Assembly: GCA_944376225.1 (NCBI GenBank)
Contig: CALWBZ010000134.1
Location: 1 to 39,893 of the forward strand
Source of the DNA: an uncultured Clostridia bacterium
Lineage (GTDB): Bacteria > Bacillota > Clostridia > Lachnospirales > Bianqueaceae
Direction: 5' to 3'
Length of the DNA: 39,893 nt
Positions 14,148 through 28,419 of this stretch are shown piece after piece. A program made the translations under genes and the position numbers. Below the pieces are notes generated by a model. That model did no database searches. It saw only the letters and a list, made by a program, of their open reading frames with translations, and was not told where the DNA came from. How positions within the stretch are numbered: position 1 is the stretch's first letter; each line of letters opens with the position of its first letter.

Positions 14148-14909
14148 TTACTCTTCTTCCATCATTCGCTTTAGAAATCCTTCTTCCAGCCTGTCGCTGC
14201 AAGTATTCGTGTGCCCGTCTCCGGAAATCATGGTGAAACGGTATCGGTACGGATCTCCCGGTATCGACCGGAAGGTGTCTCGCACCAGTTCGTTCATATC
14301 TCGCCAGGGGTCATATTCCCCGCAGCCATGATCCACGATGGGTAAAGGCCGGCCGCTTTCGGCAAGTTCTAGGGCGAGCTTCCTGACGCAATAGGGCGAT
14401 TGCTTTATATCTCCCGTACCAAACATTCGCTCTTTATCCTGCATGCGATAGGAAAAATCCGCGTCGGCCTTATCTCCCGCGCCATAGGCTCCGATGGCGC
14501 CGAAGGTCTCCGGGTTGTGTAATCCGATATAGAGGCATCCGTAACCGCCGTTTGAGAAACCGGAGATCCAGTTGTCTTCTCGACGCAGGGAAAGCTGGGG
14601 CAGGAGGCTCCGCATGATCCTGGGCAACTCTTTACCGATGTATTCGCCGAAACGGGCTCCCTGGGCCATATCCACAAAGCAGGAATGATAGGCATGGGGC
14701 AGGATGACCGCCAGATTCTCGTATTTTCCCGCATGGGCCTCGATCCGCGTGTCCCGTACCCATCCCGTCTGATCGCCGCTGCCGCCATGAAGCAGCCACA
14801 GGGTCTTTAGAGGTTCCTTGATCGTATGAGGGTTATCCGGCAGGAGCGCCCATACATCCATCCCCATCTGTAATACTTCCGACTGAATATGAAACTGCAT
14901 CAGCGTCAT
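14148..14909 (-). CDS. Alpha/beta-hydrolase esterase (esterase D/PF00756 type), copy 1
   Basis: The 253-residue cytosolic protein has a nucleophile elbow GFSNGGYG (near residue 110), an Asp region YDPWRDMN and a late His in SGDGHT. This gives a full Ser-Asp-His triad of the putative-esterase family, which includes feruloyl and acetyl esterases. It is a close paralogue of the protein at 19510-20280. It overlaps its degenerate sister gene by four bases (ATGA). Located at the end of a sugar ABC operon, it probably de-esterifies imported, acylated oligosaccharides; that substrate is inferred. Confidence 0.88.
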   Translation of the reverse strand: MTLMQFHIQSEVLQMGMDVWALLPDNPHTIKEPLKTLWLLHGGSGDQTGWVRDTRIEAHAGKYENLAVILPHAYHSCFVDMAQGARFGEYIGKELPRIMRSLLPQLSLRREDNWISGFSNGGYGCLYIGLHNPETFGAIGAYGAGDKADADFSYRMQDKERMFGTGDIKQSPYCVRKLALELAESGRPLPIVDHGCGEYDPWRDMNELVRDTFRSIPGDPYRYRFTMISGDGHTNTCSDRLEEGFLKRMMEEE

Positions 14910-15595
14910 GCTTCGCGACCTCCCCTCACATACGCGCCGAAGGCCTCTTCCAAAAGATCCTCCGTCTTAAGCGCCTCTACCTTGACCTGCTGTCCCTTCT
15001 CCGCCCATTTTCTCGCGCTCTCCAGATGCTCCTGGTCGCAGTAGATCCTCACGGGAACCTGGAAACGACCCGTGAGGGCATAGCCCTTCTCCTCAAGAGA
15101 TTCTTTCTCTCCAAAGATATACCCAGGGTTAGGCTCGTAATCCGTGCCGTACAGGCAGGAAACATCCAAGACGGGATTGACCGCCGCCGCTCCGGCAAAA
15201 CAATCCGGGGCGTTTTGCACGGCCATGAGCGCGCCGTAGCCCCCTGTGCCCACTCCCATGACCCAATGATCCTCGGCTCGTTCGGAAATGGGAAACCAGC
15301 CGGCGAGTTTTTCTGGCAATTCCTTGGTTAAATAGTCTCCCCAGGCGTACCCCGTCACACTGTTCACAAAACAGCTCTGGTTTCCGTCGATCAAGGCCAG
15401 CGCCACGCCTTCCCGGGAAGCGTAACGTTCGAGACGCGCCTGACGCATCCACTGGGTGCGGTCTTCTCCATGATCATGAAGCAGCATCAGGAGCGGATAA
15501 CGCTCCCCTGATTCCGGTTTCTGCGGCAGAAAAACCTCAATCCCCACATAGGTATGAGGCCCCTGCGCGAAGGTTTGTACTTGTATCCAGTTCAC
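14906..15595 (-). CDS. Degenerate alpha/beta-hydrolase, nucleophile Ser replaced by Thr, copy 1
   Basis: The 229-residue protein has the same fold as its neighbour (YPLLMLLHDHGEDRTQW near the oxyanion region). Its nucleophile elbow reads MGVGTGGYG, with Thr where the catalytic Ser should be. No Gly-x-Gly-His motif is seen near the C-terminus. It resembles the product of 20271-20888 (GVDTGGYG), and both sit directly before an intact esterase gene. It is probably a pseudoenzyme partner, or less likely a Thr-nucleophile hydrolase. The ribosome binding site is GAAAGGGGT. Confidence 0.8.
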   Translation of the reverse strand: MNWIQVQTFAQGPHTYVGIEVFLPQKPESGERYPLLMLLHDHGEDRTQWMRQARLERYASREGVALALIDGNQSCFVNSVTGYAWGDYLTKELPEKLAGWFPISERAEDHWVMGVGTGGYGALMAVQNAPDCFAGAAAVNPVLDVSCLYGTDYEPNPGYIFGEKESLEEKGYALTGRFQVPVRIYCDQEHLESARKWAEKGQQVKVEALKTEDLLEEAFGAYVRGGREA

Positions 15596-15628
15596 TTTGT
15601 AACCCCTTTCTTTCTCTAAAATGAATCA

Positions 15629-15771
15629 AAGCGCAGCATAGTTTTCGCCATGCTGCGCTTATGATACAATAAAATATGGTATCTTTCGAAGTTTGCCGCC
15701 CTTTGGAGGCAAACTCAAAGCGCAGCGCATTCTCTACTCGACGAGAATATTGCCATGCTGCGCTTATGATA
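15629..15771. repeat. Repeated hairpins between permease and esterase-pair genes
   Basis: AAGCGCAGCAT / ATGCTGCGCTT (15629-15639, 15650-15660) forms one hairpin. AAGCGCAGC / GCTGCGCTT (15718-15726, 15757-15765) forms a second, longer one with an inner ATTCTC/GAGAAT stem. The 20-base segment GCCATGCTGCGCTTATGATA occurs exactly twice (15647-15666 and 15752-15771). Between them is GTTTGCC / GGCAAAC (15691-15697, 15707-15713). The block fills the roughly 200-base gap inside the operon and has no strong T-run, so it may tune or process the mRNA. Confidence 0.8.
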
Positions 15772-15797
15772 TCACGTCCCCATCAAAAACGCAAGTC

Positions 15798-16664
15798 TTA
15801 TCCTTTGACCGATCCCAACAGCGCTCCCTTGGCGAAATATTTCTGCAAGAAGGGATACACGATGACGATGGGAAGGGTGCTGACGCAGATGACCGCGTAT
15901 TTAACCGCGTCGGAAGGTACCTTGGCATACTCGGACAGGCTTTCAGAACCCGCGAATCCGCCCACGGACAGGACGATGATCTGCCGAAGCCATACCTGAA
16001 TGGGCCAGTCATTGATATCATTCAGATACATCATGGCGTTGAAATAGCTGTTCCAGTGGGATACGGCATAGAACAAAGTGATCGTGGCGAAGGACGCCTT
16101 GGAAATCGGCACCACGATCCGCAAAAAGACCTGCAAGTCATTGCAGCCGTCAATTTGTGCCGATTCTTCGATGCTGTCCGGGAGTCCCTGGAAGAAGTTC
16201 TTCATGATCACCATGTTGTAGGCGCTGATCGCGATGGGCAGCCAGAGAGACCAATAGGTATCTAAGAGATGCAGATCGTTTACCACCAGGTAATTAGGAA
16301 TCATTCCCGGATTAAAAAGCATGAACACGATGACCACGCCCATCATCACCTTGCGGCCCGGCAGGTATTTCTTGGATAGGGCGTAGGCCGTAATCGATGT
16401 GATAGCCATGTTAATAAAAGTGCCTACCACCGTGATGATGACCGAGTTGACGGTACTCCTGGCCAGAACATTTGTCGTAAAAATGTACTTATAAGCATCC
16501 AGGCTGAAGGAGTTGAATCCTCCGATCATTCCCGTAGCGGAAAAAGACCCCACGATGACAAAGGCGATGGGAAAAACCATAACCACCCCGATCAATCCCA
16601 AAAACACATAGTTAAAAACATCAAACACACGGCTTCCCGCCGTCTTATTTTTGACCATAGCCAT
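15798..16664 (-). CDS. Sugar ABC permease, LplC/AraQ type, system 1
   Basis: The 288-residue inner-membrane permease has six predicted helices. The cytoplasmic EAA loop reads ESAQIDGCNDLQVFLRIVVP, the contact point for the ATPase. It ends in the family-typical PFLQKYFAKGALLGSVKG. It pairs with the LplB-type permease; its ATG overlaps that gene's TGA (TGATG) and has GGAGGG upstream. No ATPase gene is present, as is usual for this subfamily, where a shared MsmK-like ATPase serves several systems. Confidence 0.93.
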   Translation of the reverse strand: MAMVKNKTAGSRVFDVFNYVFLGLIGVVMVFPIAFVIVGSFSATGMIGGFNSFSLDAYKYIFTTNVLARSTVNSVIITVVGTFINMAITSITAYALSKKYLPGRKVMMGVVIVFMLFNPGMIPNYLVVNDLHLLDTYWSLWLPIAISAYNMVIMKNFFQGLPDSIEESAQIDGCNDLQVFLRIVVPISKASFATITLFYAVSHWNSYFNAMMYLNDINDWPIQVWLRQIIVLSVGGFAGSESLSEYAKVPSDAVKYAVICVSTLPIVIVYPFLQKYFAKGALLGSVKG

Positions 16665-17608
16665 CAGAAGATTCCCTCCTCTCCCACTCGATTCGCGATG
16701 ACATTCGTAAAGAGCACCAGGATCAGGCTGATGACCGACTTAAAGAATCCCAGCGTGGTAGAATAGCTGAAATTGCCGTTTACGATACCCTCCACGTAAA
16801 TATACGTATCAAAGACCTCCGCCACCTGCCGGTTGATGGCGTTTCTCATCAGATAGATCTGCTCAAAGCCCGTATCCATGAAACTGCCCATACGAAGGAT
16901 GAACATGGTGATAATCGTTCCCCGGATGGCCGGCAGCGTGATGTGCCACAATTGTTTCCACCGGTTCGCCCCGTCTACCACCGCCGCCTCATAGAGCTGT
17001 TCGTCCACGCTGGAAAGAGCCGCCAGATAGATGATCGTGCCCCAGCCCGCCTCCTTCCAAATCGTCTCGATGACGATCAACGGCCGAAACCAGTTGGGAT
17101 TTAACAGAAACTGAATCGGTTGTCCCCCCATGGAGGTAAGTACCTTATTGATATATCCCGTCGGCCCGATGAAAAGATACACCAAACCGACTAGAACCGA
17201 CCAGGACAAGAAGTGGGGCAGATAGATCAAAGACTGCACCACCCGCTTGTAGGCGGATCTTTTGATCTCGTTCAGAAGCAGAGACAAGATGATGGGAATC
17301 GGGAAATAGAAAATCAGATTATAAAGCGCCAGCATGATCGTATTGGAAAACAAAAGTCCAAAACTGTACACGGCGCTTCCGTTAAACATCCTCTCGAAAT
17401 TATAGAGGCCCACCCAGGGACTGCCTGTCACTCCCAGCGTCGGAAAATAATCTTGGAAGATGATAATCAGGTAACTGGCGGGATACAACTTGAATACAAT
17501 ATAAAAGATCGCGGCCGGGATCAACATGATATACAGCCATTTATAGCGTTTCAATGTCTTCCACAGGCCCTGCTTTTTTCGTACGTTGACTGTCGCTGTC
17601 TTTGCCAT
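16664..17608 (-). CDS. Sugar ABC permease, LplB type, system 1
   Basis: The 314-residue permease begins with a basic cytoplasmic stretch and has about six membrane helices. Its EAA loop reads EAAVVDGANRWKQLWHITLP, and the C-terminus FTNVIANRVGEEGIF is typical of LplB-type proteins. With the next permease it forms the channel for the substrate delivered by the upstream lipoprotein. A strong hairpin in the 64-base gap separates it from the binding-protein gene. Confidence 0.93.
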   Translation of the reverse strand: MAKTATVNVRKKQGLWKTLKRYKWLYIMLIPAAIFYIVFKLYPASYLIIIFQDYFPTLGVTGSPWVGLYNFERMFNGSAVYSFGLLFSNTIMLALYNLIFYFPIPIILSLLLNEIKRSAYKRVVQSLIYLPHFLSWSVLVGLVYLFIGPTGYINKVLTSMGGQPIQFLLNPNWFRPLIVIETIWKEAGWGTIIYLAALSSVDEQLYEAAVVDGANRWKQLWHITLPAIRGTIITMFILRMGSFMDTGFEQIYLMRNAINRQVAEVFDTYIYVEGIVNGNFSYSTTLGFFKSVISLILVLFTNVIANRVGEEGIF

Positions 17609-17634
17609 ACCACGGCCCCCTCACTTTATATTAT

Positions 17635-17659
17635 ACAGGGGGCGTATCTCGCCCCCTGT
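17635..17659. repeat. GC-rich hairpin after the system 1 binding-protein gene
   Basis: ACAGGGGGCG (17635-17644) pairs perfectly with CGCCCCCTGT (17650-17659) around 5 bases. In the operon direction only ATAATATAAAG follows, so it is probably a 3' stabiliser that keeps binding-protein mRNA more abundant than permease mRNA, a common arrangement. Confidence 0.8.
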
Positions 17660-17672
17660 TCTTTCCTTCCGA

Positions 17673-19274
17673 TTACTCGGTCACATAATTTGCCTGGATC
17701 TCGTCAAGGATCGCCTGGCCGCCGGAAGACAGCCAAGTATCCACAGCCGCCTTAAAGGCAGCCTCGTCGATGAATCCCATGATAAACTGCGCCCGCGCGT
17801 CGTAGATGAGTGAGGCCAATTCGTTTTCTTTCTGTATGTTCTCGGAAGACAGCATACCTACGGAGATATCCGGCACCGCGTACTGAGCGTTCTCCGCGTA
17901 ATGCTGCTGGATCTTGTCAAAATCGGACAGGGGCTGCCCCCAATCCTCGGCCATAAGCCTTCTGGCAAACATGTTGGCGAAGATGGATCCGGAACCGTCA
18001 GAATCCCGCAGCTCCCGCTGCTCGTCGGTGATATTGATGGTGCCGTCCGCGTTCGTCGTATAATGGATGCCTTCGATACCGATATCGACGGCCTTCGCGC
18101 ATTCATCCTGGTTCAGATCTACCATGAATTGCAGAATCTTACGCAGATCTTCCTCCGTCTTCACCGCCGAAACCGGGAATACGTTTCCGCCGCTGACGCC
18201 GGTGATATTGGAGTTAACTACCTTGTTGCCGTTCGGATCCAGGGAAAGCATCTTATAGCCGATCTTCGCGTCCGGATCATTGGCTAGGAGCGTATCGTAC
18301 TTTCCGCCGGGCGTCACCGAATTGGTGGCTGTGGTGAACATGAATCCTGCTCTTCCGTCCAACATGGGGTTATATTTGGCGCCGGAACCCAGCGTCATGA
18401 ATTCGGAATTGAGATATCCGTTCTCGTACATGTCGTGCATCATGTTCAAGCAGTCCATGTATTCATCCGTCTGGAAGTAAGCGACGACCTTGCCGTCCCT
18501 TACGCCGTAGCGGTTAGGTGCGCCGCAGGCCACGGCCAGGGTATTAAAGCCGTAATTGACTTCCTTGTCCTGATCGTCCACATAGTTAAATCCGGTAGTG
18601 TCATTGACGCCGTTCTGATCCGGATCCTGCTCGGTAAAGGCTTTGGCCAAGTCATAATAATCCTGAGCGCTCATCACCTCCGGCAGCTCGATACCCAGGT
18701 TCTCCACCCAGTCCTCGCGGTACACCATGGCGATACGGGCGTCCGGCACATAAGAAGGAATACAATACCGTCTGCCCTCCGTCAAGGAAGTATCCCGCTG
18801 CACGTCGCTCATCAGCGTATCCGTGATAAAAGGATAATCCTTAACGATATCCGTGATATCCCAGAAAGCGCCGGTTTGACACATGCGGATGTAGTTGGAA
18901 GAGCTCACGTCCGCGCCGCCCATGACCATCAGCGCGTTGTCTCCCGCCATCATGGTATTGAACTTCGTCATCGCCTCTCCGTTGGGCGTCCAAGTAACCT
19001 GAATCTCCACGTTCAGCTTTTCTTGTACGAAATCAAATACCGGATTGTTGGTCGTGCTGGGCGGTTCCTGCTCGTAGAAGCTGGCCAGCGTCGTGATCAC
19101 AAAAGGCGTATCCTCCGATACTCCCGGCGATTCTTCCCCGCCGCCCCCAGAGGTTTCCGCTTGGGATTGCTGCGGCGCCTGGGACGAAGACTCCGTCCCG
19201 CCCCCGCCGTTACAGCCCACAAGAGCCGAAACCAACATCACGAACATCAAGAATACAGCTATACCTTTTTTCAT
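17673..19274 (-). CDS. Extracellular sugar-binding lipoprotein, system 1
   Basis: The 533-residue protein starts MKKGIAVFLMFVMLVSALVGC, a signal peptide with lipobox and lipid-modified Cys, then a Ser/Gln/Gly-rich linker. The rest resembles LplA/YtcQ-type family 1 solute-binding proteins for oligosaccharides, including YREDWVENLGIELPEVMSAQ and the Ca-site-like DPDQNGVNDTTG. The ATG at 19274 is chosen for its GGAGGG ribosome binding site and the signal peptide directly after it. It is first in the second operon, followed by two permeases and the esterase pair. The specific sugar is unknown. Confidence 0.92.
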   Translation of the reverse strand: MKKGIAVFLMFVMLVSALVGCNGGGGTESSSQAPQQSQAETSGGGGEESPGVSEDTPFVITTLASFYEQEPPSTTNNPVFDFVQEKLNVEIQVTWTPNGEAMTKFNTMMAGDNALMVMGGADVSSSNYIRMCQTGAFWDITDIVKDYPFITDTLMSDVQRDTSLTEGRRYCIPSYVPDARIAMVYREDWVENLGIELPEVMSAQDYYDLAKAFTEQDPDQNGVNDTTGFNYVDDQDKEVNYGFNTLAVACGAPNRYGVRDGKVVAYFQTDEYMDCLNMMHDMYENGYLNSEFMTLGSGAKYNPMLDGRAGFMFTTATNSVTPGGKYDTLLANDPDAKIGYKMLSLDPNGNKVVNSNITGVSGGNVFPVSAVKTEEDLRKILQFMVDLNQDECAKAVDIGIEGIHYTTNADGTINITDEQRELRDSDGSGSIFANMFARRLMAEDWGQPLSDFDKIQQHYAENAQYAVPDISVGMLSSENIQKENELASLIYDARAQFIMGFIDEAAFKAAVDTWLSSGGQAILDEIQANYVTE

Positions 19275-19311
19275 GTCGAACCCTCCTTTAAAAATTAGAT
19301 TCATTGTGTAC

Positions 19312-19341
19312 ATAATAAACCCTCCCCGCATGTATTGTCAA
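19312..19341 (-). promoter_or_regulatory. Promoter of sugar-transport system 1
   Basis: Consensus TTGACA (19336-19341) and TATTAT (19312-19317) with an 18-base spacer lie on the minus strand, downstream of a terminator. The leader is short (about 30 bases). Confidence 0.7.
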
Positions 19342-19459
19342 CCCGTTTTTGTATAATCTGTCCTCATTATTTTGTTTTTATCAGTTTTTCACAAATCGAA
19401 AGCCATTTCCCGGCTATAAAAACCCCATTTTTTGTTCAAATTGTACAATCAGTAAAGAA

Positions 19460-19504
19460 CGTGAAAAAGGACATTGCGTCCTCTCTCGATTTCGCAATGT
19501 CCTT
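19460..19504 (-). terminator. Terminator after the second esterase
   Basis: AAGGACATTGCG / CGCAATGTCCTT (19467-19478 and 19493-19504) makes a perfect 12-bp stem followed on the minus strand by five T's. It lies 5 bases after the esterase stop and ends the upstream transport operon. Confidence 0.9.
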
Positions 19505-19509
19505 CTCTC

Positions 19510-20280
19510 TTATTTCCCCATCATCTTCTGTATGAAGTAGCGTATCGCTGCCTCGCAGCAGGCCGAGGAGTGTCCGAGGCCCTCCCAGATACGAAACTCG
19601 TAATGATAGGGATCCCCCGGCACGGACAGGATCGCGTCTCTGACCGTCTCGTTCATGTCCCTCCAGGGATCCTCCGACCCGCATCCGTGGCAGATGATCG
19701 GCTTTAAGCGTCCGGATGTCCCCAACTCCTTGGCGAGCTTGCTGACACAGTAGGGCGTGTCGTGCAGATCGCCTTTTCCAAACAATCGCTCCTTCTCCTG
19801 TTCGATCTTCGTAAAGTCCGCGTCCGCCTTGTCCCCCGCGCCAAAGGCTCCCACCGCGCCGTAACTCTCCGGGAAGGTGAGCCCCAGATAAAGGCTTCCG
19901 TACCCTCCGTTGGAAAATCCACTGATCCAGTTGTCCTCTCGCTTAAGCGACAGCTTCGGCAGCATCCTTCGCAGAATCGTAGGCAGCTCCTTACTCAGAT
20001 AGGTGCCGAACATGGCTCCCGACGCCGTGTCCACACAGCTGGACCCGTAGGCGTCCGGCAGGATCACCGCCAAGTTTCCGTAAGCCCCCGCGATCTCCTC
20101 GATGGCGGTGTGGCGCAGCCAGAAGGTATGATCGCCCACGCCGCCATGCATGAGCCACAGCACTTTCCAGCTTTCCGCTTCCCCGTGTTTCGGCAGGGGT
20201 TCCGGCCCCGGAACCAAGGCCCAGACGTCCGTCTCCATCTGCAGGATCCGGGAGTGAATCCGAAACCGCATCAATACCAT
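19510..20280 (-). CDS. Alpha/beta-hydrolase esterase (esterase D/PF00756 type), copy 2
   Basis: The 256-residue paralogue of the 14148-14909 protein shares long blocks such as FSNGGYG, GAGDKADADF, HGCG-x-x-DPWRDMNE and the late GLGHS. It has an intact Ser-Asp-His set and no signal peptide, so it acts in the cytosol. Its start codon overlaps the end of the degenerate sister gene by 10 bases; an alternative ATG at 20271 exists, but the longer start matches the paralogue's N-terminus. Likely role: removing acyl groups from imported glycans (inferred). Confidence 0.88.
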   Translation of the reverse strand: MVLMRFRIHSRILQMETDVWALVPGPEPLPKHGEAESWKVLWLMHGGVGDHTFWLRHTAIEEIAGAYGNLAVILPDAYGSSCVDTASGAMFGTYLSKELPTILRRMLPKLSLKREDNWISGFSNGGYGSLYLGLTFPESYGAVGAFGAGDKADADFTKIEQEKERLFGKGDLHDTPYCVSKLAKELGTSGRLKPIICHGCGSEDPWRDMNETVRDAILSVPGDPYHYEFRIWEGLGHSSACCEAAIRYFIQKMMGK

Positions 20281-20888
20281 TCTAAAGCGCCCCCTCTCTC
20301 TACCATGTCCCTGAGGGCGGCCTGCATTTTTTCCCGCAGGCTTCCGGCCCCGTCATAGATTCCTTCTCTTTCCTCTAATGCCGGATAACCGTTGCCGGGC
20401 AGATCTTCCCGCGGGCCGAACAAGACCCCGGGATCGGGACGATAGCCCTTCTCATAAAGCTCTCCCAGATCTCGCACCGGATCGACGGCGCCCCGCAGGG
20501 CATACCCGCTCACCGCCCGCAGCGCTCCGTAACCCCCGGTATCCACGCCCAGCACGCCTCGGCCCTCCCGGTCCTTTCGGATCGGGAACCAACCGGCCAG
20601 GAGTCCCGGCAGCTCATGATTCAAGAAATCGCCCCAGCGCTCTCCGCTTACGAGATTTACGAAACCGCTCTGATTCCCCTGGGGCATGGCAATCAGAACC
20701 TTCTTCTCGTCCACCGTATCTTCTAAGTACACCTTGTTCGCCCACTGATCGCGGCCCTCTCCCCGGCCATGAAGCAATACGAGCAGGGGATAAAGCCTGC
20801 CCCGCTCCATGTCTTCCGGCAGCAGCAGATCGATGCCCAGATAGGTATGGACGCTGGGCACATAGGACTGAATACAGACTCGGTTCAC
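20271..20888 (-). CDS. Degenerate alpha/beta-hydrolase, nucleophile Ser replaced by Thr, copy 2
   Basis: The 205-residue protein is related to 14906-15595 (both begin with an N-terminal xxWIQ/RVCIQ strand, then LLVLLHGRGEGRDQW). The elbow reads LGVDTGGYG, again Thr instead of Ser. It is shorter than its paralogue and lacks any C-terminal Asp/His motif. It lies one base after the serine-hydrolase gene. Conservation of the same substitution in both copies argues against random decay and for a non-catalytic partner role. Confidence 0.78.
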   Translation of the reverse strand: MNRVCIQSYVPSVHTYLGIDLLLPEDMERGRLYPLLVLLHGRGEGRDQWANKVYLEDTVDEKKVLIAMPQGNQSGFVNLVSGERWGDFLNHELPGLLAGWFPIRKDREGRGVLGVDTGGYGALRAVSGYALRGAVDPVRDLGELYEKGYRPDPGVLFGPREDLPGNGYPALEEREGIYDGAGSLREKMQAALRDMVERGGALEWY

Positions 20889-20889
20889 G

Positions 20890-22389
20890 TTATTCCTCCT
20901 TTAATACTCCGCTTTGGAAGCCCTGAAGCTCTTCCCAAAACTTCTCCGCGAATTTTTCCATGCGAAGGGTGATGCCCTCTTCAGAGAAGACAAGGCGAAT
21001 CTTCAAGACGCCCAGGAAATCTCCGACAGCATAACACAGAAGTTCCAGTACCTGTTCCCTCTGCCACGCTCCGCTCACCATGCAGGGCATATGCAGCACA
21101 GGCGGCTCCTGGGGATACCAGTATACCACGGGAGGTATTCCCTCCGCCGCTTCTTTCGAGGCGAAGCCCGGGAAATCCTGGGTCTCGTAGTACCCCAGTC
21201 CGAACCGGAGCCTATGGCCGTCCCAGGTCAGGCTCCCCCGCCCCTCCTCAAAATCGAGACTCACTTCTTTAAGATGCAGGCTCGCCCAGGTTCCTTCCTC
21301 GTTGGGAATCATGCGATAGGTCTTTCCGTTCGCCCGCTCCATCCAGGGGCTCCACAGGGCTCCCTCGTGAGGGCGTACTTCGAGACGCCGGCAATAGTCT
21401 TCCAACGCCGACCGACCGGCCCCGTCTTCCGGAAGCGCCTCCCCCGAAACGTCGGGAAGGATCTGTTGATAAAACTGTTCTTCCACCCATCCGATCTTCC
21501 CCGGCTCATCCTGCATGTCCGCCGTCATGGCAAAGACCATGTCCGCGTCGGGCATACAATAGGCCATCTGTCCGCCCATGCCCTTCATGGCAAATCCTTG
21601 GGGCGTGAGCCAGAACTGATACCCGTATCCTTCCTTTCCGTTCTCGATCTGTTTGGATACGGCGGCCTCCATATAGGCTCGGCTGATCAGCTGCTCTCCT
21701 TCCCAGCTGCCTTTCCTTAGGCTCAGCTGCGCCAGCTTGGCCAGATCCCGCAGAGTACACAAAACCCCGGATCCACCCCAGGAGGAACGCCCGTCCGGCA
21801 CCTTTACGCAGCCGGCCTCCGGCGATAACGCTAGGGGCGCGAGACGGCAGCGAAGATATTCCATAAGTTCCATGCCGCTTTGCTCCTCCACCAGCGCCGC
21901 CAGCATCATCGCCACCGAAGTATCATAGGAAAATACCTGTCCGGCTCTGTGGGTGGGCGGGCATTCGTAGGTCATGCGGATCCAGTCATGCTCCGGATTA
22001 TCGATCATCTCGTAGGGAGACGTCACGAAGGGCGTCGCCATGCACAGCATGTCCCGGATCGTCGTCTCCATCACCCAAGGATGAACCTGACTCGGCTGAC
22101 GGTCCTTAAAATAATCGCAGATAGAATCCTCCAAACGAATCTTTCCCTCGTCCGCGAGGAGTCCCACCGCCAGCGCCGTGATGCTTTTACTGGAAGAATA
22201 CATCCTATGGGGCCGATTCTTCGAGAAGGGTCTATAATACCCTTCGGCGATGATCTGTCCGTGCCGCAGGATGCAAAAACCGTGCATACAGCAGCGGGCT
22301 TCATCGATACTCCGTAGAAACGCTAAGATCTTCCGAGAGGATACCCCCATGCTCTCGGGACTAACGATATTCATCCATTTTTCTGCCAT
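20890..22389 (-). CDS. Beta-lactamase-fold serine hydrolase
   Basis: The 499-residue protein has a class C beta-lactamase/esterase domain in its first about 310 residues. SxxK is seen as SSSK (near residue 87), a YxN-like FSYDTS near 170, and a KTG-equivalent GMGGQ near 285. A C-terminal domain of about 190 residues has no recognised motif. There is no signal peptide, so it is cytosolic. Such proteins are usually esterases, peptidases or amidases rather than beta-lactamases. Placed between the binding-protein gene and the esterase pair, it probably acts on the imported substrate. Ribosome binding site AAGGAGATAAAAATG. Confidence 0.88.
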   Translation of the reverse strand: MAEKWMNIVSPESMGVSSRKILAFLRSIDEARCCMHGFCILRHGQIIAEGYYRPFSKNRPHRMYSSSKSITALAVGLLADEGKIRLEDSICDYFKDRQPSQVHPWVMETTIRDMLCMATPFVTSPYEMIDNPEHDWIRMTYECPPTHRAGQVFSYDTSVAMMLAALVEEQSGMELMEYLRCRLAPLALSPEAGCVKVPDGRSSWGGSGVLCTLRDLAKLAQLSLRKGSWEGEQLISRAYMEAAVSKQIENGKEGYGYQFWLTPQGFAMKGMGGQMAYCMPDADMVFAMTADMQDEPGKIGWVEEQFYQQILPDVSGEALPEDGAGRSALEDYCRRLEVRPHEGALWSPWMERANGKTYRMIPNEEGTWASLHLKEVSLDFEEGRGSLTWDGHRLRFGLGYYETQDFPGFASKEAAEGIPPVVYWYPQEPPVLHMPCMVSGAWQREQVLELLCYAVGDFLGVLKIRLVFSEEGITLRMEKFAEKFWEELQGFQSGVLKEE

Positions 22390-22410
22390 TTTTATCTCCT
22401 TGTATACAGA

Positions 22411-22433
22411 GGGAGCCGCCTAAAGCAGCTCCC
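22411..22433. repeat. Hairpin after the system 2 binding-protein gene
   Basis: GGGAGC (22411-22416) pairs with GCTCCC (22428-22433), extendable by GC-rich bases inside. It sits between the binding-protein stop and the serine-hydrolase start, without a T-run, and is probably an mRNA stabiliser like the one at 17635-17659. Confidence 0.6.
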
Positions 22434-22447
22434 CCGAAAACAATTCC

Positions 22448-24076
22448 TTAGCCCATGGTCTCCGCCCAGACCTGCGCTCTTTCTTCACAAACCTCGTTTC
22501 CGTACAGGGTCATGAACTCGTCCACCAAGCTGTCGTAACGGCTGTCGAATTCATCCGGGCTGCACATGATCAGGATCGTAAACATCTCTTTATACTTATC
22601 CTGCATGGAGGTGGCATACTGGGCCTCAGACTGAACCGCTTTCTTGAAATACGGGAAGAACCAGGGATCCTGTCTAGAATCCGTCATCGCCATCTCGAAC
22701 TGGATGTCCGCCTGCTCGTTATTGCACGCGCTAGTCCAGTTCTTAAATGTAGCCTCCTGGCTGCCATACCATACGTCTTCCACGATAAAACGATACTCAT
22801 AATTGCTGTTCGCGGATAACTTATCCGGTCCGTCATAATCTTCATTAATGTGGAAAACGCCTTCCTCATCCACCGTATAATGGACACCTTCGTCTCCTAA
22901 GCTCAGTCGCATCAGGTTCTCCGGCACCAACAGCCAGTCGATGTACATGATCGCTTCCTTGGCGGATTCCGAGAATCCGGGAACCATGACAAACTTGCCG
23001 TAGGGCTGGTTCGAGAGTTTCGGATGTTTCCCTTCGGAGTTGGTGAAGGGATCGCAGGCCACGTAATAGGCGCCGTCCACGTTTTCAGCCATCGTATCGA
23101 AATAACTGCCGGGCTTGTATCCCGTCAAAAGGTTCTGGGTAAAGAAGCCCACATAGCCGTTCGTGATGTCCGAATACATCTTAGAACAATCCGTATCCAG
23201 GGCAAACTCCGGGCTGATCAGCCCTTCGTTATAGCACTGGTTCAGGAAACGCACTCCGTCTTTATATCCCGGATACAGGAAGGGGTAGGTCAACGTCAGA
23301 TCTTCCTGGGTCAGGGAAGGATCCACGAAGGAATACAGCATATTAAAGTATCCGAAGGATATCTCCTGCATGCCCATGCCGCAGGGCACGTTCTGCTCGC
23401 CCACGTTCCCCGGGTCTTCGTCCCGGAAGGCGATCATCGTGTCGTACCACTCTTCCGTGGTGGTGGGCACGGGGAGACCCAGCTTATCCAGCCAGTCGCC
23501 TCGGATCGAGGATCCTACGATGCCGGATACGGGACGGGGTGAGGGGATAACCATCTGCCGGCCGTCGAACACGCCGTATTCCATGGTCTCTTCACCAATG
23601 AAGGAAGAAAGCTGCTTCCCATACTCCGCCACGAGATCCGTCAGATCCGCTAGACCGCCCTGAGAAATATAATTCTGCACCACGTTGATGTCGTAGGTGT
23701 ATACGATGTCCGGCGCCTCTTTGCCCGCCATCCATACGTTCAGGGTTGTCACTTCCTCCCATCTGGGCATGGCCACCCATTCCAGCTCGATATTATTGGG
23801 CTCTCCGAATTCCTCCTGGATCCAGTCGCACCAGTAATTATCCCCTAAGGGGAGCTGTCCGTCCAGTCCCAGATCCCAGGCGAGGATGCTCAGGTGGGTC
23901 CGGTCTCCCGAGGGAGCCGTACTCTCTTCTTTCTCCGGCTGGCTCGTTTGGCTCGTCTGGCCCTGAGCGCTCGAGCTCTCCGGCGTGGAAGATGTGCCGC
24001 CGCCCTGGCTGCAGGCCAAGAGGGACATAACCATCAGTACGCAGAGTGCCCACGCGATCCACTTTTTCGTCTTCAT
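22448..24076 (-). CDS. Extracellular sugar-binding lipoprotein, system 2
   Basis: The 542-residue protein starts MKTKKWIAWALCVLMVMSLLAC with lipobox LLAC, then a Ser/Gln/Thr linker. The mature part resembles family 1 oligosaccharide-binding proteins (RGDWLDKLGLPVPTTTEEWY; repeated aromatic residues). It lies third, after the two permeases, with AAAGGAGG before ATG 24076. It is only distantly similar to the system 1 protein, so the two systems may bind different sugars. Confidence 0.92.
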   Translation of the reverse strand: MKTKKWIAWALCVLMVMSLLACSQGGGTSSTPESSSAQGQTSQTSQPEKEESTAPSGDRTHLSILAWDLGLDGQLPLGDNYWCDWIQEEFGEPNNIELEWVAMPRWEEVTTLNVWMAGKEAPDIVYTYDINVVQNYISQGGLADLTDLVAEYGKQLSSFIGEETMEYGVFDGRQMVIPSPRPVSGIVGSSIRGDWLDKLGLPVPTTTEEWYDTMIAFRDEDPGNVGEQNVPCGMGMQEISFGYFNMLYSFVDPSLTQEDLTLTYPFLYPGYKDGVRFLNQCYNEGLISPEFALDTDCSKMYSDITNGYVGFFTQNLLTGYKPGSYFDTMAENVDGAYYVACDPFTNSEGKHPKLSNQPYGKFVMVPGFSESAKEAIMYIDWLLVPENLMRLSLGDEGVHYTVDEEGVFHINEDYDGPDKLSANSNYEYRFIVEDVWYGSQEATFKNWTSACNNEQADIQFEMAMTDSRQDPWFFPYFKKAVQSEAQYATSMQDKYKEMFTILIMCSPDEFDSRYDSLVDEFMTLYGNEVCEERAQVWAETMG

Positions 24077-24129
24077 TTGAAAACCTCCTTTAATGATTTA
24101 TTCTCTAACCTGACTCCGTCAGGATGAGC

Positions 24130-25011
24130 TCATTCCTTGATGGCGCCAATCATCACGCCATGGACAAAATATTTTTGCAGCCAAGGATACACCAACATGA
24201 TCGGAAGCGTTGTAAATACGATGCTGGCCGCCTTGATCCCCTCTTCGGCCGTTCTTTGCTCCGCCAGCTGGGGGTTATTCATCATCGTCTGGCTGGAGAG
24301 CTGGCTGCTGTTGATGATCATGTTGATCTTCTGGGGCAGGGTGTAGAGCTCCTGCTTATTGATAAAGAACTTGGCGTCCTGAAATCCGTTCCACCGCGCC
24401 ACGGCGTAGAACAGGGCCAGGGTGGCCAGGACCGGTTTCGACAGAGGCAGCACGATGCGCAGAAGAATCATGAAATCATTGCATCCGTCGATCTGGGCCG
24501 CCTCCTGCAGTCCGGCGGGAATCGAATTCATGAAGAACGTCCGCAGGATGATCACGTTAAAGGTATTGATCCCACAGGGTATAATGATGCCCCACATGTT
24601 GTTGGTTAATCCCAGGGAGCTGACCAACAGATAGTCGGGGATGATGCCTCCGCTGAAGAACATGGTAAACAAGATGACCATCATGATCGCCCGATGGCCC
24701 TTGAGCCGCTTCTGGGACAGGGGATAGGCCGTCAGGATCGTGAGCCCCATGGCGATCAGCGTCTGCAGCACCGTGGTCTTCACACTCATCCAGAGGGCGG
24801 GCATGATCGTGGGGTCGCTGACCACATTCTCATAGGAAACCAGATCGAACTCCACCGGCCAGAAGAAGACCTCTCGGGAAAGCACCGCCCTCGTGGAGCT
24901 GAGGGACAGGGAAATAACATAGACGAAGGGAATCATGCATATGATCACGATGAGGGTCATGAGGATATAATTACATACATCGAATGTTTTTTCTTTCAAA
25001 CGTGTGTTCAT
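24130..25011 (-). CDS. Sugar ABC permease, LplC/AraQ type, system 2
   Basis: The 293-residue permease has six predicted helices and the EAA loop EAAQIDGCNDFMILLRIVLP. It ends PWLQKYFVHGVMIGAIKE, the usual family end. The ATG at 25011 is preferred because AAGGAGG lies 8 bases upstream; a GTG at 25020 would abut that site. It follows the LplB-type gene by about a dozen bases. Confidence 0.92.
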   Translation of the reverse strand: MNTRLKEKTFDVCNYILMTLIVIICMIPFVYVISLSLSSTRAVLSREVFFWPVEFDLVSYENVVSDPTIMPALWMSVKTTVLQTLIAMGLTILTAYPLSQKRLKGHRAIMMVILFTMFFSGGIIPDYLLVSSLGLTNNMWGIIIPCGINTFNVIILRTFFMNSIPAGLQEAAQIDGCNDFMILLRIVLPLSKPVLATLALFYAVARWNGFQDAKFFINKQELYTLPQKINMIINSSQLSSQTMMNNPQLAEQRTAEEGIKAASIVFTTLPIMLVYPWLQKYFVHGVMIGAIKE

Positions 25012-25024
25012 CACCTTCACCTCC

Positions 25025-25942
25025 TTAGAAGATGCCGCCGCCGTCTATCTTATTGGCGATCGTATTGGTCAGTACCAAAAGCACCATGCCGATGACGGAC
25101 TGGAACAGCCCCACGGCCGTGGCCAGGCTGAAATTGGAGGACTCCAGGCCCACCCGATATACATAGGTGCTGATTACATCGGAGAACTCCCGTACCATGG
25201 TATTACCCATCACGTAGGGACGCTCAAAACCGATACTGACCAAGGAACCCATGCGCAGGATCAGCATCATTACGATGGTGGGACGAATGCCGGGCAGGGT
25301 GATATGCCAGATCCGCTGGAAACGTCCCGCGCCGTCCACGGTGGCCGCCTCATACAGTTCCTGGTTGATCCCCGCGATGGCCGCGATAAAGAGAATCGAA
25401 TTCCACCCCGCGCTCTGCCATACGCCCACGCCGCAGTATGTAAACAGCCAGTGCCATTTCTCCGTTAGGAAGGGAACGCTCTCCCCACCCAGGCGGCGGA
25501 TGATGATGTTGATCAGTCCGCTCTCCGGGGCGAACAATTGCAGAGAGATGCCGCCGATGACCACCCAGGAGATAAAATAGGGCAGGTAGATGATCGTCTG
25601 GGAGATCCTCTTATAAAGGACTCCCCGCATCTCGGAAAGCATGATCGCTAAGATGATAGGCGCCGGGAAGCTGAACAACAGATCCAGGACGTTCAGCATC
25701 AGCGTATTGCGAAACACCCTATAGAACTCGTCCATGGCGAATATGCTTCTAAAATACTTGAGCCCCACCCATTCGCTTCCCATGACGCCCTTAAAGATGT
25801 TATAATCCTTAAAGGCGACGGTCACGCCGTACATGGGCGCGTATTTGAAGACGAGATAATAGGCCAGCGGCAAGATCAGCATGGCATATAGGATCCAATC
25901 CCGCTTGATATAATACCTGATTCTTCGTTTTCTTCCTCCCAT
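25025..25942 (-). CDS. Sugar ABC permease, LplB type, system 2
   Basis: The 305-residue permease starts with an Arg/Lys-rich cytoplasmic tail and has about six helices. It carries the EAA loop EAATVDGAGRFQRIWHITLP and the C-terminal TNTIANKIDGGGIF. It is first in the upstream transport operon, 83 bases or more from any recognised promoter. The ribosome binding site is GGAGGTGAAGAG. Confidence 0.92.
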   Translation of the reverse strand: MGGRKRRIRYYIKRDWILYAMLILPLAYYLVFKYAPMYGVTVAFKDYNIFKGVMGSEWVGLKYFRSIFAMDEFYRVFRNTLMLNVLDLLFSFPAPIILAIMLSEMRGVLYKRISQTIIYLPYFISWVVIGGISLQLFAPESGLINIIIRRLGGESVPFLTEKWHWLFTYCGVGVWQSAGWNSILFIAAIAGINQELYEAATVDGAGRFQRIWHITLPGIRPTIVMMLILRMGSLVSIGFERPYVMGNTMVREFSDVISTYVYRVGLESSNFSLATAVGLFQSVIGMVLLVLTNTIANKIDGGGIF

Positions 25943-26061
25943 CTCTTCACCTCCGTGATTTTGAATAAGTTTTTACATCGCTTTCGCTTATGACTCAACA
26001 CTATCACCATGTCTTTGTTCTTTCAATCCTCATATCTGCTTTTTCCCCTATCATATTTGAC

Positions 26062-26099
26062 AAAAAACGAGGCTTCCGGAAATCCGGCGCCTCGTTTTT
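26062..26099. terminator. Bidirectional-looking terminator after the AraC regulator gene
   Basis: ACGAGGC / GCCTCGT with an inner CCGGAAATCCGG is flanked by A- and T-runs on both sides. On the minus strand it is followed by six T's. It separates the regulator transcript from the permease operon, which must therefore have its own promoter in 25943-26061. Weak -35/-10 candidates exist there (TTGAAA-17-TAGTGT), consistent with activator dependence. Confidence 0.8.
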
Positions 26100-26118
26100 G
26101 CTCTTTTCGGACTTGTTT

Positions 26119-28401
26119 TTAGGAATTTCGCTCCTTCCGGTAAACCGCCGGACTCATCCCCACCAGCTTCTTGAAGGCCCGCAGGAAACTCTGATCGTTA
26201 TTATACCCCACTTCTTCGGCGATCTGGATCACCGACTTGTTGCTCTTTGTCAGGATTTTCTTCGCGTCCTGAATCCGCAGCTGATGTATGTAGTCGGAGG
26301 GGCTGATTCCCGCGTGATCCTTAAAGATCTTGCGCGTGTAAGAATAGCTGATCCCCAGGGCGTCGGCGATCTCTCCCGCGCCGATGTTCTCCCGGTAATG
26401 TTCTTTAATATACTCTAGGATCCGCGGGTAGAGCCCTTCTTCCTCCTCCTTCGCCGCGCCGAAGAGCGCGCACAGGCAGTCTCCGAATTCCTGTTCAAAC
26501 TCCTGCAAAGAGTATCCCTGGACGCTAAAGATCTTATGGATCCTGCGGCTGTATTCCATCACCTGTTCCTCGTCCCCCACCCGTTCCGACAGTTTCCGCA
26601 GAATCGTTCCCGTCAGCTGATGCAGCATGAGAACCGCGTGTTCCACCGTCAGGTCGGGCATCTGCCGGATCTTCTGACAATAGTTTTCCACCGCTTTTCG
26701 GATCCATCCCTCGCTGCCGCCGTCCAGGCTTTCCATGAGTTCTTTTTCTTCCTCCGCGGGATACGCGCACTCTTCCGTCTTCTCCATAGGTAACTCCTCC
26801 TCCGTGATCACCGAACCCCAGCCCCGGAAGAATACCCGTCCGGAGGCCCGCAGCGCCTTTTCACCAGCCGCTATGGCTTCCCGCAGATCCCCGTAGGCTT
26901 TGGTCAACCCTGCCGCCATGTGGATCTGAAAATTTTCCTGTACATATTGAATATACCGATGCAAGAGGGAACATAATTCCTCTTTTTCTCCTCCCAGAAG
27001 GAGCAGATACATTCCCCGCTTTCCCACGTATGCCTCTCGCCCCTCCAAAGCTCCTTCCTGGAGCATCTGCATCAGGAGCTGACTCAGGAGGTCACGGAAA
27101 TAGCAGCGTTCTTCCCGCTCCATCTTTCCCCAGCGTTCGTCTTGCAGATAGAAACGCAGATAGGCCACTCGGATCTTTTTTCCCGCCGTCTGCCTCCCCA
27201 GGCCCTCGGGGATTTCCTGGGGATTGTATCCGTTAATAATCCCCGTGTGCAGCCAAGCTTCTTCCTGCTTGTTTTCCCCTTCCGCCTGGTTCTTTTTCAG
27301 GCGTTCGCCCTCCTGCTTCATGTTGGCGATGGCCCGCTTGAGAAGGGCCAGGTCTCCGCCGTTTCCCGAGAAGGGTTCGCCCTTTAGGATCTCATCCGAC
27401 AGCTGTTTGACCGGATTATATAAATACCGGCTAAGCCCATAGGCCCCCAAAAGCCCCGCCGCCAAGATCCCCGCAAGGACCAAGAGGAGCCCGTTCATAT
27501 AAGTCTCAGTCAGCGTGTTCATGGTTTCCACGGAACTCACGTCCACAAAGAGCCAATCTTCAAAGTCGGAACGATACCAGGAGACCAGCATCATCTCCCC
27601 GCCGATATCCGTCGTAAAGTATCCCGCCGCCGCGGGCTCCTGCAAGATCCTATGGATATGAGCCTCGCCGGATAGATCGGCTCCCATATATTCTCTCCTG
27701 GGATCGCACAGTACCCGGCCGCCTTCATCGATCACCTGCACATATTCCTGTCCGCCGTCATAACCCGCGTTGAGCCTGGAAGCAAGCTCCATCGCGTCCA
27801 CGTTATAAATCAGCGCTCCGGAGAGTCCCGGCGTGGTAAAGGAGGACAGCCGGTAGATATAGGTCATCACATAATCCCCCTCGTCCTTTCCCGTGGGGCT
27901 ATGCAGGGACTGTACCTTTCGCGCCGACATCCAGGCGCTGTTATCCAGACTGTTTCGTTCCTCATAACATGCCAGCCATTCCTGATCCAGGAAACTCTCG
28001 AGACGATAACACCCGTTATAGGAGGTCACCACATAGCCCGGCTCCTCCAGATAGAGGTACATGGATAGGAGCATGGGATTGGTCCGGTTCGCCGCCGACA
28101 ACCTGGCCTGGGCTTCCCGCAGGTCTCCGATGGCCACGGATTTCCCGCTCATCCCACTCTGGGCAAAGATCTGGGACAGGTTCAGCGCGTCCCGTTTGAG
28201 GGTAACCGTCAGTTCCTGCATGTATTCCTCCAGACGAACCTGATTGCTCTGTCTCGCGTCGCCGATTCTTTCCTCTGCGTATCGCTGCATGTTTTTATCG
28301 AAGGCGATCCCGCACAAGGCCATGAGAACCGCGACAAGCAAAGCCAGCGTCACAAAAATCTTCGTGAAAAACGTATATTGTAGTCTTTTTCGCGATCTCA
28401 T
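26119..28401 (-). CDS. Membrane-anchored AraC-family sensor regulator
   Basis: The 760-residue protein has a membrane helix at about 17-38, an extracytoplasmic sensor region (about 40-300) and a second helix (about 310-330). A linker and cytoplasmic region follow, then an AraC DNA-binding domain (about 660-758) with both helix-turn-helix units (ADALGISYSYTRKIFKDHAG and AEEVGYNNDQSFLRAFKKLV). This architecture is common beside LplABC-type sugar transporters in Firmicutes, where it activates the neighbouring operon in response to an external sugar. The ATG at 28401 has GGAGGG 6 bases upstream; a TTG at 28407 abuts that site. It is directly upstream of system 2. Confidence 0.92.
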   Translation of the reverse strand: MRSRKRLQYTFFTKIFVTLALLVAVLMALCGIAFDKNMQRYAEERIGDARQSNQVRLEEYMQELTVTLKRDALNLSQIFAQSGMSGKSVAIGDLREAQARLSAANRTNPMLLSMYLYLEEPGYVVTSYNGCYRLESFLDQEWLACYEERNSLDNSAWMSARKVQSLHSPTGKDEGDYVMTYIYRLSSFTTPGLSGALIYNVDAMELASRLNAGYDGGQEYVQVIDEGGRVLCDPRREYMGADLSGEAHIHRILQEPAAAGYFTTDIGGEMMLVSWYRSDFEDWLFVDVSSVETMNTLTETYMNGLLLVLAGILAAGLLGAYGLSRYLYNPVKQLSDEILKGEPFSGNGGDLALLKRAIANMKQEGERLKKNQAEGENKQEEAWLHTGIINGYNPQEIPEGLGRQTAGKKIRVAYLRFYLQDERWGKMEREERCYFRDLLSQLLMQMLQEGALEGREAYVGKRGMYLLLLGGEKEELCSLLHRYIQYVQENFQIHMAAGLTKAYGDLREAIAAGEKALRASGRVFFRGWGSVITEEELPMEKTEECAYPAEEEKELMESLDGGSEGWIRKAVENYCQKIRQMPDLTVEHAVLMLHQLTGTILRKLSERVGDEEQVMEYSRRIHKIFSVQGYSLQEFEQEFGDCLCALFGAAKEEEEGLYPRILEYIKEHYRENIGAGEIADALGISYSYTRKIFKDHAGISPSDYIHQLRIQDAKKILTKSNKSVIQIAEEVGYNNDQSFLRAFKKLVGMSPAVYRKERNS

Positions 28402-28419
28402 ACTCAACCCTCCAAAAAG

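Follow-up and report, generated by a model that had tools for sequence, protein, structure and literature searches.

The stretch of DNA analyzed here, referred to as the window, comprises 39,893 nucleotides of a contig from an uncultured Clostridia bacterium of the family Bianqueaceae and carries two pairs of esterase-like genes, which raises the question of why a bacterium would keep a degenerate esterase homologue directly beside an intact one. A preliminary description reported two minus-strand pairs in which the degenerate homologue overlaps an intact GFSNGGYG gene and lies 5' of it, and this arrangement was borne out by the coordinates of the open reading frames (Table 1) and by the Pfam family PF00756, which is matched above the cut-off by all four proteins. 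The overlap amounts to 4 bases between psA and enA and to 10 bases between psB and enB. With identities of 59% between the intact members, 48% between the degenerate members (over 172 residues), and 35% between psA and enA (over 138 residues), and with PF00756 in all four, pairs A and B can be regarded as real paralogues.

Table 1. Features of the window that are discussed in the text
Feature	Position	Strand	Description
enA, intact esterase of pair A	14148..14909	-	253 aa, GFSNGGYG; predicted triad Ser119, Asp200, His233
psA, upstream pseudoesterase of pair A	14906..15595	-	229 aa, GVGTGGYG; Gly116 in the nucleophile column, Thr117 at +1; acid and His columns empty
Transporter block between pairs A and B	15798..19331	-	
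Second ORF read as permease, between the pairs	15798-16664	-	by inspection
ORF read as permease, between the pairs	16664-17608	-	by inspection
Solute-binding protein, between the pairs	17673-19331	-	Pfam SBP_bac_1
enB, intact esterase of pair B	19510..20280	-	256 aa, GFSNGGYG; Asp and His present
psB, upstream pseudoesterase of pair B	20271..20888	-	205 aa, GVDTGGYG; Asp in the nucleophile column; C-terminal part shortened
Upstream part of the same-strand cluster	20890..28407	-	regulator, two permease-like ORFs, solute-binding protein, hydrolase
Beta-lactamase-fold hydrolase	20890-22389	-	PF00144; directly upstream of psB
Second solute-binding protein	22448-24076	-	weak match; upstream cluster part
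AraC-type regulator	26119-28407	-	upstream cluster part

Both pairs are embedded in a cluster of genes on one strand that also encodes an AraC-type regulator, two transporter gene sets, and a beta-lactamase-fold hydrolase. The same order is found in a second genome of the genus, G002, including that of the two permease ORFs between the pairs. In G002, an ORF with the same start and size as the PF00144 hydrolase of the window is located upstream of psB. Scans of the cluster for promoters and terminators returned counts only moderately above those of shuffled controls.

The preliminary description proposed that a threonine replaces the nucleophile in the GVxTGGYG motif of the upstream members. 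In a G-x-S-x-G motif, the nucleophile is the third residue. When the motifs are aligned with G-F-S-N-G of the intact members, G-V-G-T-G of psA and G-V-D-T-G of psB place Gly and Asp, respectively, in the nucleophile column, and the Thr aligns with the Asn of the intact members and the Met of canonical relatives. Predicted structures of moderate confidence (pLDDT 77 to 80) place the residues in the same register: in enA, Ser119 sits between a strand (residues 113 to 118) and a helix (residues 120 to 131), and in psA, Gly116 sits between the corresponding strand (residues 110 to 115) and helix (residues 117 to 128). The threonine thus occupies the +1 position, and the alignments and predicted structures together rule it out as the nucleophile.

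An alignment of 54 proteins extends this result beyond the window. The Ser and the catalytic His are missing from each of the 13 degenerate rows, and the acid survives in only some of them; the other 41 rows contain Ser, His, and either Asp or Glu. The absence of the C-terminal catalytic His, noted at the outset for the two copies of the window, is therefore a property of all 13 degenerate members. The +1 threonine is not fixed, being found in 5 of the 13 and replaced by Met in the remaining 8, and with Ser and His absent from every one of them, a Thr-based enzyme, which had been offered as one possibility, can be set aside. Serine at this site in homologues had been named as an observation that would speak against the proposal; it was found, at the true nucleophile column, only in deeper, active upstream relatives. 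The intact members have the expected features of EstA/FphF-type serine esterases, namely, PF00756, the alpha/beta-hydrolase fold (predicted, of the two, for enA), and a Ser-Asp-His triad that lies, as judged by comparison of enA with its relatives, in the positions typical of the family. psA and psB lack the Ser nucleophile and the catalytic His of such an esterase, and they lack the conserved Thr at the nucleophile position that a Thr-nucleophile hydrolase would have; psA, psB, psC, and psX, the last two being introduced below, are homologues of an active family that have lost its catalytic residues. In the enzymes of pair C (L003:456-1229 and orthologues), the catalytic acid is Glu rather than Asp in 5 of 5 cases, and Ser and His are kept.

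A different chemistry is nevertheless suggested by psB and by the psA proteins of genomes G001 and G006, all of which have Asp as the residue aligned with the nucleophile, since an enzyme with altered catalysis could use this Asp in the GVD copies, as dehalogenases and epoxide hydrolases do, if not the Thr. However, Gly and Asp alternate at this column inside one orthologous group, and the His that Asp-nucleophile hydrolases need is absent from all 13 degenerate proteins, both of which are inconsistent with Asp as a nucleophile; with the Thr located at +1, we consider an enzyme of changed chemistry to be highly improbable.

The pattern had been described as occurring in two diverged copies. 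Both copies were confirmed, but the count was understated, as the source genome (G000) contains a third pair, pair C, on contig C74, with GLGMGGYG in the upstream member (psC) and GLSNGAYG in the downstream member. Corresponding pairs are present in the same-genus genomes G001 and G002, in "Candidatus Cottocaccamicrobium excrementipullorum" (L007), and in the sister-genus genomes G005 and G006. The fetched loci contain 122 distinct esterase-like ORFs, 13 of which were found to have an elbow without Ser, and all 13 are the upstream partner of an intact gene; a further 10 ORFs were missed by the search pattern, 8 of which were read and have the Ser (including the one in L009), the other two being in L030 and L040. 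Surveys at the levels of order, class, and family indicate that the downstream GFSN/GLSN subfamily is rare. It recurs in another family of the order, where it occurs in two states, with the upstream gene either live or degenerate. Outgroup tandems in which the gene order is the same and the upstream member has a complete Ser-Asp-His triad were found in G067, G319, G358, G1005, and G1008. The tandem of G865, which belongs to the other family, has a degenerate upstream gene (psX) with the motif GIGTGGYT, and the same motif is present in its relative G1088, where the assembly divides the gene between contigs. Other tandem esterase duplicates of the order, namely, G849 (L152:4305-5928), L022, and L059, have the motif Ser in both members, which indicates that the loss of catalysis is not caused by tandem duplication alone.

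In a maximum-likelihood tree, the upstream members, live and dead, form one clade (support 100/97) and the downstream members another (100/99), which suggests that the tandem is old. The 13 degenerate members, among them psX of G865 on a long branch, form a single clade (100/95) inside the upstream clade. Removal of the triad columns left these groups in place (upstream, 100/97; downstream, 100/98; degenerate, 98/94), and a tree built from the N-terminal part alone gave the same grouping with weak support (75). Four trees in which the loss was split, with psX, psA plus psB, psC, or psC plus psX held with the live upstream members, gave AU p values of 0.02 to 0.04, each mildly significant and obtained for groupings that were picked after the tree had been seen. 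Several separate losses of catalysis are thus mildly rejected, and the single loss persists without the triad columns. In the best tree, the downstream partners of the dead members do not group as one clade, although a tree in which they do is not rejected (AU p = 0.256). Since the degenerate members are one clade within the upstream clade, the simplest and most likely reading of the sequences is that catalysis was lost once and that the dead member was then kept through duplications.

Is the dead member maintained, or is it merely slow to disappear? Between G002 and "Ca. C. excrementipullorum," dN/dS is 0.11 for psA (dS, 0.63) and 0.042 for enA (dS, 0.81), both at unsaturated dS. Across psA, psB, and psC, all of which show the signature of purifying selection, the values range from 0.06 to 0.16, those other than 0.11 resting on dS of 1.8 or more. 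The reading frame is intact in every complete copy of the degenerate member. Together, the dN/dS values and the integrity of the frames exclude simple decay of the upstream gene. The rate of evolution of the pseudo members is roughly double that of their partners. The N-terminal half is the better conserved one: its identity is 0.71 for the pseudo members versus 0.79 for the enzymes, and in the C-terminal half, which in the enzyme holds the acid and the His, it is 0.47 versus 0.72. Q7 and T15 are fixed or nearly so in the dead clade and rare in live relatives, and W100 is invariant among the dead members and also occurs in 3 of the 5 live upstream ones. The faster evolution and the shortened C terminus, along with the overlapping start and stop codons of pairs A and B, could also be expected of a decaying duplicate that is kept only because its translation opens the downstream ribosome-binding site; dN/dS near 0.1, intact frames, an N-terminal half conserved almost as well as that of the enzyme, and the survival of three separate pairs speak against this, and we regard such an explanation as quite improbable. 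The earlier suggestion that selection keeps the degenerate member is upheld by the dN/dS of about 0.11, the intact frames, the single degenerate clade, and the three paralogous pairs. On the evidence of its sequence, the upstream gene is a conserved pseudoesterase under purifying selection.

What the pseudoesterase is kept for can be approached through its genomic context. The two genes of pair A are adjacent in five genomes and in at least four different neighborhoods, next to a repeat protein in L007, a rhamnosidase and a lyase-like gene in G001, and unrelated genes in G006. Pair C in G001 adjoins GH115 and trehalase-like genes. The location of several pairs in loci for glycan uptake or degradation would suit a free-standing ligand binder, which would hold an acylated sugar in the old pocket as a sensor or carrier, catalyze nothing, and make no contact with the esterase. 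Such a protein would also be expected to retain the complete fold and the scaffold of the first half of the pocket, and the pseudoesterases do so, down to the elbow glycines and His40 in the HG loop. However, strict adjacency to one kind of esterase, maintained through duplications and changes of neighborhood, would not be expected of it, and conservation is lowest in the C-terminal half, from which a large share of the pocket and lid is built in proteins of this fold. We therefore consider a free-standing binder unlikely.

A regulatory or structural partner role of the degenerate member, one of the options in the preliminary description, is the best remaining explanation. On this view, the pseudoesterase derives from an active esterase and retains the alpha/beta-hydrolase fold at full or slightly reduced length, and its triad has been stripped of Ser and His and, in the majority of copies, of the acid as well. 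Its gene overlaps or abuts that of the active sister, to which it is probably coupled in translation. Keeping the scaffold while losing the active-site half, the protein could take one subunit place in an esterase oligomer, where it might stabilize, position, or tune the active esterase. The live esterase, in turn, is predicted to act in the cytoplasm, where it would strip imported, modified glycans of short acyl groups, as suggested by the absence of an evident signal peptide from the N termini, which were read, and by the importer genes nearby. In its entirety, the reading that a pseudoesterase without a triad is a noncatalytic partner of a live esterase that deacylates imported glycans in the cytoplasm has, in our estimate, a probability of about 0.6. 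The missing catalytic residues, the single degenerate clade, the purifying selection, and a linkage that outlasts changes of neighborhood are computational results, and we infer the physical association, the direction of the effect, and the substrate.

Loss of the partner bears on this reading from both sides. Two orphan enA-type enzymes (L137:4946-5740, on contig C4 of G005, and G007:C151:10363-11106) are nested in the enA clade and have no pseudo partner adjacent to them. The persistence of the live enzyme in G005 and G007 indicates that the dead partner is dispensable in some settings and counts against a universal need for it. Conversely, an orphan accumulated 44 unique changes versus 13 in its paired sister in G006 (p = 4e-5 with enA of the window as the outgroup; weak, with p = 0.06 to 0.08, with the distant enB outgroup), and this faster evolution after the loss of psA, a single event, counts in favor of the partner role.

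The closest solved relatives of both kinds of protein are the EstA/FphF/FrmB-like esterases of Firmicutes (PF00756; PDB 2uz0, 4rot, 6vh9, and 7l0a) and the metagenomic esterase 4rgy, and in Foldseek searches, the models of psA and enA were both best matched by EstA/FphF-type esterases. The pairs share with these esterases the fold, the size, and the lack of an evident signal peptide, and the intact members also share the GxSxGGYG elbow and the Asp and His positions. They differ from them in the two-gene unit, in the upstream members without Ser and His, and in the unusual Asn that follows the nucleophile of the intact members (GFSNGGYG versus GLSMGGYG). Mycobacterial MPT51, which is generally described as catalytically inactive, is another protein with an esterase fold and no working triad. 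It has the antigen 85 fold (PDB 1r88) and is a weak sequence match to psA but differs in being secreted and in not forming an overlapping pair with an EstA-type esterase. FphF, an active relative, crystallizes as a tetramer and is dimeric in solution (PMC8957240), which makes a hetero-oligomer modeled on the homo-oligomers of the family plausible; by this analogy, the pseudoesterase probably joins an EstA/FphF-type esterase of the cytoplasm as a subunit of a hetero-oligomer. In function, the nearest parallel is the AdoMetDC prozyme of Trypanosoma (PMC5201418), likewise an inactive homologue retained under selection with an active enzyme. It differs from the pairs described here in its fold and domain of life; strict gene adjacency is a feature of these pairs, in which any activating effect would be putative.

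In summary, these pairs exemplify a known kind, the dead paralogue beside a live enzyme, and for their esterase lineage we found no description of a pseudoesterase pair in the open-access literature that was searched. Most known cases of a dead paralogue controlling a live enzyme come from eukaryotes. Tentatively, the pairs may represent a bacterial pseudoesterase lineage in which one loss of the triad in an ancient tandem gave rise to a dedicated regulatory subunit and then to several dead/live pairs for different glycan uptake loci. A practical consequence is that such upstream genes should not be annotated as esterases. Since the states before and after the change are both extant, as outgroup tandems with two live members, tandems with one dead member, and orphan live genes that have lost their partner, this family offers a compact system for testing how enzymes are turned into subunits.
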